Shown here: positions 3,157 through 60,871 of the stretch, piece by piece
Layout of the letters: each line of letters starts with the position of its first letter
Position numbering within the stretch: the stretch's first letter is position 1
Assembly: GCF_000280495.2 (NCBI RefSeq)
Contig: NZ_CP018016.1
Span: 2,542,001-2,606,000 of the forward strand
Length of the DNA: 64,000 nt
Origin: Kosakonia radicincitans DSM 16656
Lineage (GTDB): Bacteria > Pseudomonadota > Gammaproteobacteria > Enterobacterales > Enterobacteriaceae
Direction of reading: 5' to 3'
The notes under the pieces: model-generated
What the model saw: the letters and a program-made list of their open reading frames with translations, nothing else
Databases searched by the model: none
What the model was told of the DNA's origin: nothing
Position numbers and translations under genes: made by a program

Positions 3157-3294
3157 ATATATCATCAGAATAATTGTGGGAAATTATCTGCGCTATTCAT
3201 TGATATGTTCTTATGTACTCTTTAATTAATACACAGCATAAATGAATTGAGTAAAGACTCAGTTTTAATGAATAGTTTTTCTGGTAATTTATTG

Positions 3295-3393
3295 ATGAAT
3301 AATGATTGTCGAATGAAATACTGGTCGTGGATCACCGTGTTTTCTGTTTCCATCCTCTTTTGGACTCAGATTGTCTGGATGCTCTTCCGGTAA
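3295..3393 (+). CDS. ymiC: Microprotein YmiC-like, single membrane helix
   Basis: A 32-residue peptide containing MKYWSWITVFSVSILFW is almost entirely one transmembrane helix. It sits just upstream of acnA, where E. coli encodes the 31-residue YmiC with the same MKYWSW core. In-frame ATGs at 3268, 3295 and 3313 are possible. I chose 3295 because it gives the E. coli-like length. The ribosome-binding site is weak. A strong terminator follows eight bases after the stop, closing this microprotein unit before acnA. Function unknown. Confidence 0.65.
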   Translation: MNNDCRMKYWSWITVFSVSILFWTQIVWMLFR

Positions 3394-3400
3394 TGAATTG

Positions 3401-3427
3401 AAAAGCCTCGCAACTGCGGGGCTTTTT
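3401..3427 (+). terminator. Intrinsic terminator after ymiC
   Basis: AAAAGCCTCGC and GCGGGGCTTTT form a long stem with a four-base AACT loop, followed by more T. It isolates the microprotein genes from acnA. Confidence 0.85.
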
Positions 3428-3515
3428 TAATTTCCTCGCCTGCAAATTTGTCCATTTGTAGCAATTGGGGTTGTTATCAAATCGTTACGATATGTTTGTG
3501 TTATCTTTAATACAG

Positions 3516-3535
3516 ACCCTGAAGATCCTCAGGGT
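3516..3535 (+). promoter_or_regulatory. Hairpin in the acnA leader
   Basis: ACCCTGA and TCAGGGT form a perfect seven-base stem with a six-base loop, 30 bases before the acnA start. No T-run follows, so it is not a terminator. It may be an operator or an mRNA leader structure. Confidence 0.35.
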
Positions 3536-3565
3536 ATCGCAATCCCTGTAAGTAAGGAGGAGCAC

Positions 3566-6241
<2,676 letters not shown>

Positions 6242-34564: not shown

Positions 34565-34753
34565 AAATTTCCTTTGTTCTGGCGTTTGCTTACAGCAAGT
34601 GTTGAGCAAAAATCGGTGTGACGCAAATCTTGCCATGGAGGTTAAATTACTGTCCATCATCAATTTTTTGACTGACCAGGTTTGCATTCCGGTATGTTAA
34701 AACAAATAATTACACTTCTATTGCCGGGAAATGACACATCAAAAGGGGATCCC

Positions 34754-36370
34754 ATGACGCATCGAGTTTCCACGCTGTGCTGCGCGCTCTGGCTGTGCGG
34801 TTTTTCTTCTGTATCGTTTGCTGCTGATGTTCCTCCAGGTACGCAACTGGCGGCAACGCAGGAAGTTGTGCGTCATCTGAAAGATGAACCCGCCTCGCTG
34901 GATCCTGCGAAAGCCGTGGGTCTGCCGGAGATTCAGGTGCTGCGCGACCTGTTCGAAGGGCTGGTGAATCAGGACGAGAAGGGCAACATTATTCCCGGCG
35001 TCGCCAGCAAATGGCAGAGCAATGATAATCGCATCTGGATTTTTACCCTGCGTGACAATGCCCGCTGGTCTGATGGTTCGCCGGTAACCGCAGAGGATTT
35101 CGTTTATAGCTGGCAGCGTCTGGTGGATCCGAAAACGACCTCGCCTTTTGCCAGCTTTGCGGCGCTGGCGGGTCTGGCCAATGCGCAGGATATTACCGAG
35201 GGTAAAGCGACGCCGGATAAGCTCGGCGTCAGCGCGATGGATGCGCGCACGTTGCGCGTGCAACTTTCCCGTCCCGTACCGTGGTTCCCGAGTCTTGCGG
35301 CCAGTTTCGCGCTCTACCCGGTACAAAAAGCGAATGTTGAAAGCGGCGCAGACTGGACGCGTCCGGGTCATCTGATCGGTAACGGCGCGTTTGTGCTGAG
35401 CGATCGTGTGGTGAACGAAAAGCTGGTGCTCAACCGCAACAAGCACTACTGGGATGACGGCAAAACCGTGATCGATAAGGTGACGTTTATGCCCATCAAT
35501 CAGGAGTCCGCTGCCACCAAGCGTTACCTGGCGAATGGCGTCGACATTACCGAATCTTTCCCGAAAAACCTCTATCAGAAATTGTTGAAAGATATCCCGG
35601 GGCAGGTTTACACGCCGCCGCAACTGGGCACTTATTACTACGCATTTAATACGCAAAAAGGTCCAACGTCCGATCCCCGCGTGCGTCTGGCGCTGAGTAT
35701 GACGATCGACCGTCGTGTGATCGCGCAAAAAGTGCTGGGCACTGGCGAGAAACCCGCATGGCGTTTAACGCCGGACGTGACGGCAGGTTTCACCCCGGAA
35801 CGTTCACAATTTGAATCGATGAGTCAGGCAGAGCTGAACGCGCAGGCGAAAACGTTATTGCAGGCGGCAGGTTACGGCCCGCAGCGGCCGCTTAAACTCC
35901 GGTTGCTGTATAACAGTTCTGAAAGTCACCAGAAGATTGCTATCGCAGTGGCCTCAATGTGGCGACAGAGTCTGGGCGCGGATGTGACGCTGCAAAACCA
36001 GGAGTGGAAAACCTATATCGACAGCCGTAACAGCGGCAATTTTGATGTGATCCGCGCGTCATGGGTGGGGGATTACAACGAACCGTCCACGTTCCTGTCG
36101 ATACTGACGTCGGGAAGCAGCAGCAATATTTCGCGTTTCAATGATGAAAGCTATGACAAAGTGATTGCACAGGCGGCGCAGGAAACCAGCGCCAAAGCGC
36201 GTAACGTGGACTACAACGCGGCGGAGCATCTTATTGCCGAAAAAGCGCCGATTGCGCCGATTTATCAGTACACCAATGGGCGCTTAATTAAGCCGTGGCT
36301 GAAGGGATACCCGATTAACAACCCGGAAGATGTGGCATACAGCCGCACGCTATACATTATTAAGCATTAA
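34754..36370 (+). CDS. mppA: Periplasmic murein tripeptide-binding protein
   Basis: MppA binds L-Ala-gamma-D-Glu-meso-DAP and delivers it to the Opp permease. The 538 residues start with a signal peptide (LCCALWLCGFSSVSFAA). They keep the OppA fold, including FTLRDNARWSDGSPVTAEDF and TPPQLGTYYYAFNTQKGP. I chose ATG 34754 because AAAAGGGG precedes it; the 24 codons upstream are not conserved. With ycjG and mpaA it forms a complete murein-peptide recycling cluster. Confidence 0.95.
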   Translation: MTHRVSTLCCALWLCGFSSVSFAADVPPGTQLAATQEVVRHLKDEPASLDPAKAVGLPEIQVLRDLFEGLVNQDEKGNIIPGVASKWQSNDNRIWIFTLRDNARWSDGSPVTAEDFVYSWQRLVDPKTTSPFASFAALAGLANAQDITEGKATPDKLGVSAMDARTLRVQLSRPVPWFPSLAASFALYPVQKANVESGADWTRPGHLIGNGAFVLSDRVVNEKLVLNRNKHYWDDGKTVIDKVTFMPINQESAATKRYLANGVDITESFPKNLYQKLLKDIPGQVYTPPQLGTYYYAFNTQKGPTSDPRVRLALSMTIDRRVIAQKVLGTGEKPAWRLTPDVTAGFTPERSQFESMSQAELNAQAKTLLQAAGYGPQRPLKLRLLYNSSESHQKIAIAVASMWRQSLGADVTLQNQEWKTYIDSRNSGNFDVIRASWVGDYNEPSTFLSILTSGSSSNISRFNDESYDKVIAQAAQETSAKARNVDYNAAEHLIAEKAPIAPIYQYTNGRLIKPWLKGYPINNPEDVAYSRTLYIIKH

Positions 36371-36378
36371 TAAAAAAA

Positions 36379-36406
36379 TCCCCTTACGTCACGGGAAGTA
36401 AGGGGA
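36379..36406 (+). terminator. Hairpin after mppA
   Basis: TCCCCTTAC and GTAAGGGGA form a perfect nine-base stem, eight bases after the mppA stop. No T-run follows on the plus strand, so it may be a 3'-end stabiliser. Confidence 0.5.
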
Positions 36407-36536
36407 AACTCATTGATTACGGAATGATTCCTGTCTTAGCAGGAGTGTTAAGAATTTTACTTAAGGAATGTGAAGGGACAATGGAGGAAATAAGGAGCGT
36501 TGCGGGAATGTGAATGACCGTTCTCGGGTACTGGCC

Positions 36537-36632
36537 AAAAAAAGCCCGCTACATTGAGCGGGCGAAAAATACTGGAAGCAATGTGAGCAATGTCGTACTG
36601 AATACCTGAGTGTTTAACTCAACTATTCAGTA
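36537..36632 (-). ncRNA. RyhB-type iron-responsive small RNA
   Basis: On the minus strand this region contains CGACATTGCTCACATTGC and then TTCCAGTATT. This is the conserved target-pairing core of E. coli RyhB. The architecture is RyhB-like: a 5' hairpin (CTGAATA pairing with TATTCAG), an unpaired core, and a 3' terminator (GCCCGCT and AGCGGGC followed by seven T). A promoter, TTGCGC, 17 bases and TATCTT, lies just upstream and is overlapped by a Fur box. The 5' and 3' arms differ from E. coli ryhB, and the locus is not that of E. coli ryhB. I infer a paralogue comparable to Salmonella RyhB-2. The 5' end is predicted to within a few bases. It probably down-regulates iron-using proteins when iron is scarce. 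Confidence 0.88.
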
Positions 36633-36634
36633 TT

Positions 36635-36653
36635 GAGAAAGATAATCTTTATC
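36635..36653 (-). promoter_or_regulatory. Fur box over the RyhB-type promoter
   Basis: The 19 bases match the Fur consensus GATAATGATAATCATTATC at 16 positions. They overlap the -10 element (36639-36644) and the spacer to the -35 (36662-36667), a position where Fur would block transcription when iron is plentiful. Confidence 0.8.
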
Positions 36654-36758
36654 ATTTATTGGCGCAACCCCTTTTTTTGTAAGGTCGTTCGGAGCGGCAT
36701 TTTCCGCGGATAAACCCAGCTCTTTTACGATTATGGTCAAAAAACAGACAGCATTCGG

Positions 36759-36797: not shown

Positions 36798-36986
36798 ATG
36801 GAGACTGAATTAGACCCAACCCAACTGGCTATCGAATATCTGCGTCGCGATCGCAGTGCGATGACACCGGCCGAGTACCTCAAAAAACTCAAACGACTCC
36901 GGCTGGAGTTTGCGGATCTGCTGACCCTTTCGCATACAGAATTAAAAGAAGAGATCGATTTTGCCTGGCGGTTGGGCATTCATTAA
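36798..36986 (+). CDS. Small uncharacterised protein (62 residues)
   Basis: I do not recognise this gene. The 62-residue soluble protein (METELDPTQLAIEYLRRDRS at the start) is charged and predicted mostly helical, with no signal peptide or membrane segment. GAGGA lies four bases before ATG 36798; an upstream in-frame GTG at 36774 is less likely. It has its own extended -10 promoter and a strong terminator, so it is a complete single-gene unit. That supports it being real. It sits between the RyhB-type RNA and dgcM. Confidence 0.75.
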   Translation: METELDPTQLAIEYLRRDRSAMTPAEYLKKLKRLRLEFADLLTLSHTELKEEIDFAWRLGIH

Positions 36987-43364: not shown

Positions 43365-43485
43365 GCAGGTGAATGCAACGTCAAGCGATGGGCGTTGCGC
43401 TCCATATTGTCTTACTTCCTTTTTTGAATTACTGCATAGCACAATTGATTCGTACGACGCCGACTTAATGAGTCGGCTTTTTTTT
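43365..43485 (+). ncRNA. fnrS: Anaerobically induced small RNA FnrS
   Basis: The sequence matches remembered E. coli FnrS almost base for base. It begins GCAGGTGAATGCAACGTC and ends in the terminator GCCGACT-loop-AGTCGGC plus eight T. It is 121 bases long, one shorter in the terminator loop. FnrS is an Hfq-binding RNA made under FNR control without oxygen; it represses aerobic metabolic genes such as sodB and maeA. It lies between zntB and dbpA, as in E. coli, and an FNR box is in place upstream. Confidence 0.95.
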
Positions 43486-52164: not shown

Positions 52165-53013
52165 ATGAATGCTCTCATTACTTAATTATATTCAGTATAA
52201 ACAGCCAGCGAAGATAGATATTTGATCTGATGTGCCTGGCCGGTATTTAGCATGTGAATGAATTCGTTGCGTTCTGTCAGATCGGGCTCAGGAGTTTCTT
52301 TTTTCATCAGCCTGTGCGTTCTGAACGATTTTTTATTTTATTTTTTAATGCATTGCACTCCATCAACCGCTTCCTTCGAACAGAAAGCGTATCAGGTATG
52401 TTTCTGGTAACCGATTCACAGCTACGTCGCGCTATCGTGGAAAAATACACTGAAATGCAGCCAGTTATTTTCCCGTAAGTAGCACTCATTGACTTTGCTG
52501 GTGCTAATCCTGCGTAAAACGTCCTGTAACTCTGGCGCAAAGGTGGGGGAATCGCCAGCCAACCCTGCCCGCGAACGCACGGTTGCGCCGACGCGAGCAG
52601 GGCGCGGGTCAACAGGCACTTGCAGGAGGAAGCATTCACACAGCCCATTTACAGGGCGTGACAAGATAGCAGCATAGTGTTGGATTTTAGCACCATGATG
52701 TCTGACATATTTGATAAAATCGCCTGGGTTTGCTCTAACATTGGACGTCATTTTACTAATAATACCAATTGCCTGACATCTCGCGTCGTGGGTCATCAAT
52801 CTAAAATAAAGCTTGCTATAAGTTGGTATATGTGTGACTAATGAGTGGTAGGTTTGTTCCACAGATGTAATAAAGCGGTTTAGTAAAGCAGTCCTCATCA
52901 CAAGTGTTATCTGTAGATAATTCTTCTTTTTGAGCCTCCTTATCGTTAATAATTTAATTCTGTGCGAAAACCCTTTTTCGCCGAAAGGCTCTATGTATAT
53001 TGAGGAAATATTT
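52165..53013. other. Gene-poor region with long csp leader
   Basis: These 849 bases separate nifJ from the cold-shock gene. Most is AT-rich. A GC-rich patch (about 52530-52680) stands out. The last 140 bases probably form the long untranslated leader typical of cold-shock genes, ending in CGCCGAAAGGCTC close to the start. Several reading frames cross the region on both strands, but none has conserved features I can defend. Confidence 0.5.
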
Positions 53014-53226
53014 ATGTCTAACAAAATGACTGGTTTAGTAAAATGGTTTAATGAGTCCAAAGGGTTTGGTTTCATCACGCCTGACAATGGCAGCAAAGAC
53101 GTATTCGTGCATTTTTCGGCTATCCAGAGCGGCGGTTTTAAAACGCTGAATGAAGGTCAGAAAGTAGAATTCACGATTGAAGATGGGCAAAAAGGCCCGT
53201 CAGCCGGGAATGTTTCCGCAATATAA
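53014..53226 (+). CDS. Cold-shock protein, CspA family
   Basis: The 70-residue single cold-shock domain begins [20 protein letters not shown] and binds single-stranded RNA and DNA as an RNA chaperone. RNP1 (KGFGFI) and RNP2 (VFVHF) are intact. It is a mixture of CspA- and CspB-like residues, so I give no letter. GAGG precedes ATG 53014; a 28-codon upstream extension is part of the leader. Genes of this family in E. coli are often prophage-borne (cspB, cspI), and here it stands alone in a gene-poor patch. Confidence 0.9.
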
Positions 53227-53240
53227 ATAGCATTCCCGGT

Positions 53241-53317
53241 CCGCTATTAGCTCAGCACGGTTAGAGCGTTGCTTTATTTACAGAAAGCAGAGTCGGGGTT
53301 TGAGTCCTCGATAGCGG
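53241..53317 (+). pseudogene. tRNA-like element, probably degenerate
   Basis: CCGCTAT pairs with ATAGCGG as a seven-base acceptor stem. TA, then GCTC-loop-GAGC, form a standard D arm. CGGGG-TTTGAGT-CCTCG form a T arm with a seven-base loop. The anticodon arm has six pairs (TGCTTT with AAAGCA) and an abnormal eight-base loop, and the T-loop C56 equivalent is T. CCA is not encoded. This supports a decayed tRNA rather than a working one. It starts 14 bases after the csp stop codon and is followed by a terminator. Confidence 0.7.
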
Positions 53318-60643: not shown

Positions 60644-60871
60644 AATGAATATTTATAGAGTTCATAAGGAAATGCCTATTTTCATTATAATTAGCCCGGT
60701 ATAGGCTTGTCCATCTGCTGAGCGTACAGCCCTGATTAACGTGGTGAATCCCCCTATGCGGCGGGGCGCTTTTGATCATGAAGAACATTGCTGCGCAGGC
60801 TACGGGATCAAACGTAGCTTACCGGGAGGCACCCGGCACCACTCCTCAGTTCTGCTTTTTCAGGATCCCCT

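Follow-up and report, generated by a model that had tools for sequence, protein, structure and literature searches.

A third RyhB gene, predicted to be transcribed from the minus strand between mppA and ydiH, was identified in the genome of Kosakonia radicincitans DSM 16656 (G000). This copy is very probably a functional RyhB paralog of the RyhB-2 class, with its expression being a prediction, and it represents a new locus within the known RyhB family. The features found in and around this interval of the window (i.e., the whole stretch of 64,000 nucleotides that was analyzed) are as follows:

34682..36370, plus strand: mppA (open reading frame), encoding an oligopeptide-binding protein of the OppA/MppA group; convergent neighbor
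36372..36448, minus strand: second candidate sRNA, about 77 nt, with a predicted start; hairpin, motif at 36428-36406, and terminator hairpin at 36405-36380 followed by seven T
36454..36481, minus strand: promoter-like TTGTCC-16-TAAAAT ahead of the second candidate sRNA (scan, 9/12 bases)
36537..36633, minus strand: third RyhB gene, about 97 nt, with a start predicted from the position of the -10 element (Rfam RyhB, 74.1 bits; fold z -5.6)
36537..36563, minus strand: intrinsic terminator with seven T (terminator scan)
36568..36595, minus strand: 28-nt target-pairing core, with no substitutions relative to the other two copies of the genome (L001, L002 and L003 compared)
36596..36632, minus strand: 5' hairpin of the RyhB-2-class type (fold; covariation over 52 distinct class members)
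36635..36653, plus strand: predicted Fur box, 16/19 bases, overlapping the -10 element (consensus scan; 19/19 positions invariant in seven intact copies)
36639..36667, minus strand: sigma-70-like promoter TTGCGC-17-TATCTT, 7/12 consensus bases (read by eye)
36798..36986, plus strand: ydiH, divergent neighbor (Pfam PF15930 (YdiH), 126.9 bits)

Identity and parts of the mppA-ydiH copy

In a covariance-model search, the Rfam RyhB family (RF00057; gathering score of 55 bits) matched 36602-36537 on the minus strand with 74.1 bits over the full length of the model (1-67 of 67). The same strand carries the conserved core CGACATTGCTCACATTGCTTCCAGTATT with zero mismatches and a Rho-independent terminator with a U tail (stem at 36563-36544, then seven T). 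In the predicted fold of the 98-nt minus strand, a long hairpin at the 5' end and a terminator hairpin enclose a core that is mostly open; the energy is -32.6 kcal/mol versus a mean of -16.3 for shuffled sequences (z -5.6; 0/200 shuffles as good). By all of these features, the sequence looks like that of a real RyhB gene, encoding a regulatory RNA of iron starvation. A prior sequence-only reading had proposed a RyhB-type sRNA gene at 36537..36653, with the pairing core, a 5' hairpin and a seven-T intrinsic terminator, and each of these elements was recovered. Its remark that protein-only annotation would leave the interval empty holds as well, although Rfam-based annotation would detect the gene.

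The locus had been described as lying between mppA and dgcM; the mppA side of this description is correct, but the nearest gene on the other side is ydiH, with dgcM located beyond it. The best NCBIfam match of the mppA product was OppA (622 bits, under the cut-off of 947), and the adjoining mpaA scored above its own cut-off; the name mppA was adopted from the sequence-only reading and is consistent with the mpaA neighbor. Other Rfam matches in the window, all on the plus strand, were STnc180 (3222-3433), FnrS (43365-43481), the cspA thermoregulator (52848-53279) and STnc100 (60741-60842).

Upstream of the gene, TTGCGC (36667-36662) and TATCTT (36644-36639) are separated by 17 bases, so that the promoter spacing claimed previously can be seen by eye; however, this putative promoter is weak by consensus and, with 7/12 bases, falls under the threshold of the promoter scanner, which left it unlisted. 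The TTG...TATCTT arrangement recurs by eye in most of the RyhB-2-class members displayed, Franconibacter being one example without it. The Fur box reported to overlap the promoter was reproduced at 36635-36653, the score of 16/19 being relative to what we take to be the Fur consensus. This Fur-box-like site was the sole match with at most 3 mismatches in the 64-kb window, and none of 100 shuffles had any.

Three RyhB loci and class assignment

Three RyhB loci were found above the Rfam cut-off in this one genome, with 80.6, 74.1 and 66.3 bits. The highest-scoring copy (C1:334512) is located between genes that are presumably yhhY and yhhX, as assigned by resemblance and by the E. coli locus, and the lowest-scoring copy (C1:1543202-1543269, L003) is located between genes for a SpoIIE-domain phosphatase and an Ldh_2 dehydrogenase. 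A second RyhB copy in the genome had been considered probable; a copy at yhhX-yhhY does exist, but the total is three and not two. The 28-nt core is identical across all three copies. Over the transcript, 90 of 102 alignment columns are identical between the mppA-ydiH copy and the phosphatase-side copy, and 75 of 109 between the mppA-ydiH copy and the yhhY copy.

The mppA-ydiH copy shows the class promoter region, the 5' hairpin and the TACGAC junction, and its sequence places it in the RyhB-2 class (Salmonella RfrB/IsrE-like), which makes the comparison with Salmonella in the sequence-only reading apt. The phosphatase-side copy is a second RyhB-2-class gene in the same genome. The locus is not that of the Salmonella class member (L109), which has no mppA, ydiH or mpaA match alongside.

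Conservation of the 5' hairpin was assessed across 52 distinct RyhB-2-class members (53 were found and one with an indel was dropped). In this set, 90.4% of the hairpin cells were paired, and slid versions of the structure paired at 27 to 37%. Both sides were altered in 27 cells versus 9.5 in shuffles, with 0/500 shuffles as high; these both-side changes fall in 5 hairpin pairs, versus a shuffle mean of 3.4 (24/500 as high). A position inside the 5' stem (columns 12-30) is unpaired in 47/52 class members and, as judged by eye, this mismatch was closed oppositely in two sub-lineages of the mppA copy, through the 5' arm in L044 and through the 3' arm in L051 and L112.

A scan of the collection with the class pattern yielded 50 stretches and picked RyhB-2-class members in Klebsiella, Raoultella, Kluyvera, Citrobacter, Phytobacter, Salmonella enterica diarizonae and others. 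The position of the class varies by genus (e.g., near trpA in Klebsiella and beside yeaQ in Enterobacter roggenkampii). A tree built from 56 class members grouped the 9 rows of the mppA locus in one clade (support 96/87); its deeper branches have poor support, owing to the shortness of the sequence. Among 392 family genomes, 264 carried any RyhB match (E<=1e-6), 14 carried three matches and 4 carried four, in counts for which stricter filters were applied and weak matches may be missed. As only 3 of the 14 three-match genomes are Kosakonia, genomes with at least three RyhB copies also occur outside this genus. Two genomes of one genus with four RyhB matches each, G119 (L166, L170) and G236 (L168, L171), contain two RyhB-2-like copies each, 1 and 4 kb apart, and the re-run genome G133 carries a second RyhB-2-class copy (classes by eye).

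Target pairing and proposed role

The core was predicted to pair with the sodB start with a duplex energy of -23.5 kcal/mol, and 2/1000 shuffled cores were as good. As background, 47 ORF starts of the window were chosen mechanically, and among these the acnA start (3496-3605, plus strand) ranked first, with a duplex energy of -23.6 kcal/mol (15/2000 shuffled cores as good); acnA was also the top of these starts by co-fold (-14.4). This gene encodes aconitase A, an iron-sulfur enzyme (NCBIfam TIGR01341), and the predicted pairing with the RyhB core spans both its ribosome site and its AUG. The sdhC and sdhD duplexes were no better than those of shuffled cores (287 and 92 of 1000), and full-length co-fold failed to single out sodB (-8.7, behind 5/47 window starts; sodA control -8.3).

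With plentiful iron, 36635-36653 would be expected to be occupied by Fe-loaded Fur, which would block the promoter. Under iron limitation, an RNA of about 97 nt would be produced, with the 5' hairpin protecting it and Hfq presumably binding its U-rich 3' end, as in the family. The open core could then pair with the ribosome-binding sites of mRNAs for iron proteins, such as sodB and acnA for which pairing was computed, and these mRNAs would be shut down. The third copy would most likely raise the total, Fur-repressed RyhB dose rather than add a separate core regulon, extra dose being the simplest role because the core is common to all three copies. Differences in timing, stability or target strength may come from the promoter and the 5' hairpin that are particular to this copy, and the target set of the third RyhB may be narrower or shifted.

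It is conceivable, if rather doubtful, that this copy is a specialized paralog, in which the same seed is combined with a promoter and a 5' hairpin tuned to another signal, by analogy with the greater importance of RpoS for Salmonella RfrB, resulting in its own timing or target spectrum. The promoter flank and the 5' half differ from those of the yhhY copy (75/109 columns identical), but the phosphatase-side copy shares the 5' design (90/102 columns), and both the core and the Fur box are identical among the intact copies of the genus. In co-folds with the sdhD start, the yhhY copy reaches -18.9, far stronger than the RyhB-2-class copies (-10.4 and -10.3, the latter being the window copy), and the two ways in which the hairpin arms of the mppA-locus clade closed the internal mismatch (L044; L051 and L112) would also be consistent with specialization. 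PMC4211561 reports differential regulation of the Salmonella siblings.

Retention, decay and loss across Kosakonia

MppA was found in all 15 genomes of the genus, with the window MppA being 98% identical to that of G009 (K. sacchari) and to that of G003, and the mppA-ydiH interval was aligned for all 15. For G011, the interval was taken from the stretch beside ydiH because mppA is located about 48 kb away; the break near the mppA stop in this genome (L053) represents an insertion or rearrangement. The mppA-ydiH RyhB was intact in 7/15 genomes (G000, G003, G009 (K. sacchari), G005 (K. oryzendophytica), G001, G010 and G011), decayed in 5/15 (G008 (K. arachidis), G007 (K. quasisacchari), G012, G014 (K. 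pseudosacchari) and G004) and largely deleted in 3/15 (G006 (K. oryziphila), G013 (Enterobacter sp. Bisph1) and G002). Of the 28 core bases of G000, all are matched by each of the other six intact copies, and 24, 24, 17, 16 and 16 by the decayed copies, with no count between 28 and 24.

In the 7 intact copies, a set defined by core and Rfam similarity such that core invariance is partly ascertained while the Fur box played no part, 28/28 core and 19/19 Fur-box columns were invariant (47/47) versus 37/149 columns in the two near flanks (Fisher 1.8e-22, which is indicative only, as rows are related and columns non-independent). In the 5 decayed copies, by comparison, 8/28 core and 9/19 Fur-box columns were invariant (17/47) versus 67/149 flank columns (p 0.31). 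A 125-base stretch towards mppA was excluded from the flanks because the second candidate sRNA lies in this stretch, which is conserved in both sets (96 and 107 of 125). The decayed K. arachidis copy (G008), with 4 core changes, retains 19/19 Fur-box bases. Since core and Fur box are invariant in the intact copies while the near flanks diverge, selection probably maintains the third RyhB where it is kept.

The decayed versions in 5 sister genomes and the largely deleted versions in 3 raise an alternative in which the copy is silent in the K. radicincitans genome and heading for the same decay, and a promoter with just 7/12 consensus bases would fit such a fate. This reading is improbable, however, given zero core or Fur-box changes in 7 genomes, including four with 41 to 56 of 110 ydiH-side flank bases different from G000, and given that the core of the close relative K. 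arachidis (G008) already has 4 changes. That this is just a ryhB moved to a new place, or that the resemblance arose by chance, has practically no probability; only the locus, which is unlike that of E. coli ryhB, would speak for such a reading, and it is refuted by three loci above the Rfam cut-off in one genome, with the yhhX-yhhY site of a canonical ryhB ortholog held by another copy (G000:C1:334512).

The intact, decayed and deleted states need three changes on the MppA gene tree, and because remnants remain in place in five genomes, these changes are interpreted as losses of a copy that was present ancestrally. According to this one gene tree and the in-place remnants, the common ancestor of the sampled Kosakonia species probably already had the copy, and about three losses followed. 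With 8/15 Kosakonia genomes lacking an intact copy, the third RyhB is therefore dispensable in the genus.

A RyhB copy beside mppA was found in 4 of the 50 scan stretches, some of which end close to the RyhB match (K. oryzendophytica, K. sacchari, K. cowanii and Enterobacter sp. EA-1). When 15 genomes of other genera were searched with MppA, 13 gave the locus; neither ydiH nor a core with at most 7 changes was matched in about 1.5 kb after mppA at these 13 loci, and blastn of the G000 interval against the other-genus mppA loci gave no match. Three matches to a 15-base piece of the core, with 2 to 3 mismatches and 0.6 to 1.1 kb away, were attributed to chance. Among the loci examined, the RyhB site between mppA and ydiH is particular to Kosakonia.

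A link with nitrogen fixation was also considered. nifH scored above the cut-off in 10/15 Kosakonia genomes, and the third RyhB was intact in 4/10 nifH-positive and 3/5 nifH-negative genomes, i.e., no association was found. Spread by plasmids was likewise rejected; among 6 matching records of a plasmid collection, three exceed 4 Mb and are of chromosome size, and the three shorter ones (two Klebsiella and one 10.9-kb Enterobacter roggenkampii) carry RyhB among chromosomal-looking neighbors (trpAB, yeaQ), with no sign of a mobile RyhB among these matches. In a phage collection, RyhB matched partially in 4 cases; two of these are in large Salmonella records that carry a RyhB RNA annotation, and the other two in unannotated 2-kb records.

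A second candidate sRNA beside RyhB

Between the RyhB terminator and mppA, and on the same strand as RyhB, lies a second candidate sRNA, which is present in 15/15 Kosakonia genomes. Its fold has a z of -3.4 (1/200 shuffles as good), and promoter-like sites with 9/12 bases number 2 in the region versus 0.8 in shuffles. No Rfam family matched this element above cut-off; anti-hemB, the best own-strand near-match, was rejected with 18 bits versus a cut-off of 49.5. The motif ATTCCRTAATCAATGASTTT was found in 28/392 family genomes and 10/154 genera, with 0 matches for the reversed control. Motif invariance is by construction, as the motif was used to select the sites; in 30 of 32 motif matches inspected by eye, the flanking hairpin and the terminator hairpin stay paired though the stem sequences differ. 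The candidate sRNA is a paralog of an element found in 10 genera, with the motif ATCATTCCRTAATCAATGAGTTT between two hairpins, and a second G000 copy is located at C1:3293327.

Copies away from mppA have a DUF488 gene upstream in L236 and L238 and, downstream, a GAF-GGDEF gene in L202, L237 and L238, a GAF-GGDEF-EAL gene in L236 and tonB in L239; a literature search with the names of neighboring genes found nothing on the element. A model of the element (R1) matched in 8/198 genomes, with three marginal matches of 36 to 37 bits; two of these (G111 and G214) carry the motif, and the third (G127), in which the motif is absent, looks like chance. The second element may represent a new sRNA family.

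On balance, we lean towards viewing the mppA-ydiH interval as a Kosakonia-specific island of two sRNAs, comprising the third RyhB and a paralog of this undescribed enterobacterial sRNA family with the motif AUCAUUCCRUAAUCAAUGAGUUU flanked by two hairpins, in which intact, decaying and deleted copies at one site would provide a natural experiment on the fate of sRNA duplicates. A third copy whose locus is fixed, whose parent class is known and of which remnants persist at the site in sister species makes the retention, dosage and loss of a bacterial sRNA accessible to testing through comparison alone.

Comparison with known systems

In PMC3415461 and PMC4211561, two RyhB copies are reported for Salmonella and Klebsiella, as compared to up to three in Kosakonia. 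According to the former, K. pneumoniae ryhB-2 has a mapped start site and exists beside the yhhX-yhhY ryhB. The latter reviews RyhB sibling RNAs as pairs, including Yersinia RyhB1/RyhB2 and Pseudomonas PrrF1/PrrF2, with two sibling iron-responsive sRNAs per genome in each case; PrrF and similar RyhB-like sRNAs are described there as having function in common with RyhB but no significant homology. No report of a third RyhB copy was found in abstract-level searches of the open-licence literature for a third RyhB, for RyhB in Kosakonia and for RyhB paralogs in Klebsiella or Enterobacter.

The canonical ryhB at yhhX-yhhY shares with the window copy the identical 28-nt core, the terminator with its U tail, the full-length covariance-model match and a Fur-box-like promoter region; by contrast, the window copy has another locus, another 5' hairpin and a terminator stem with GCCCGC in place of GCCAGC. 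Closer counterparts are L109 (S. enterica diarizonae) and L080 (K. pneumoniae), which we infer to be Salmonella RfrB (IsrE/RyhB-2) and Klebsiella ryhB-2 themselves; these show the same class promoter region, 5' hairpin and TACGAC junction as the window copy, but are found at other loci.
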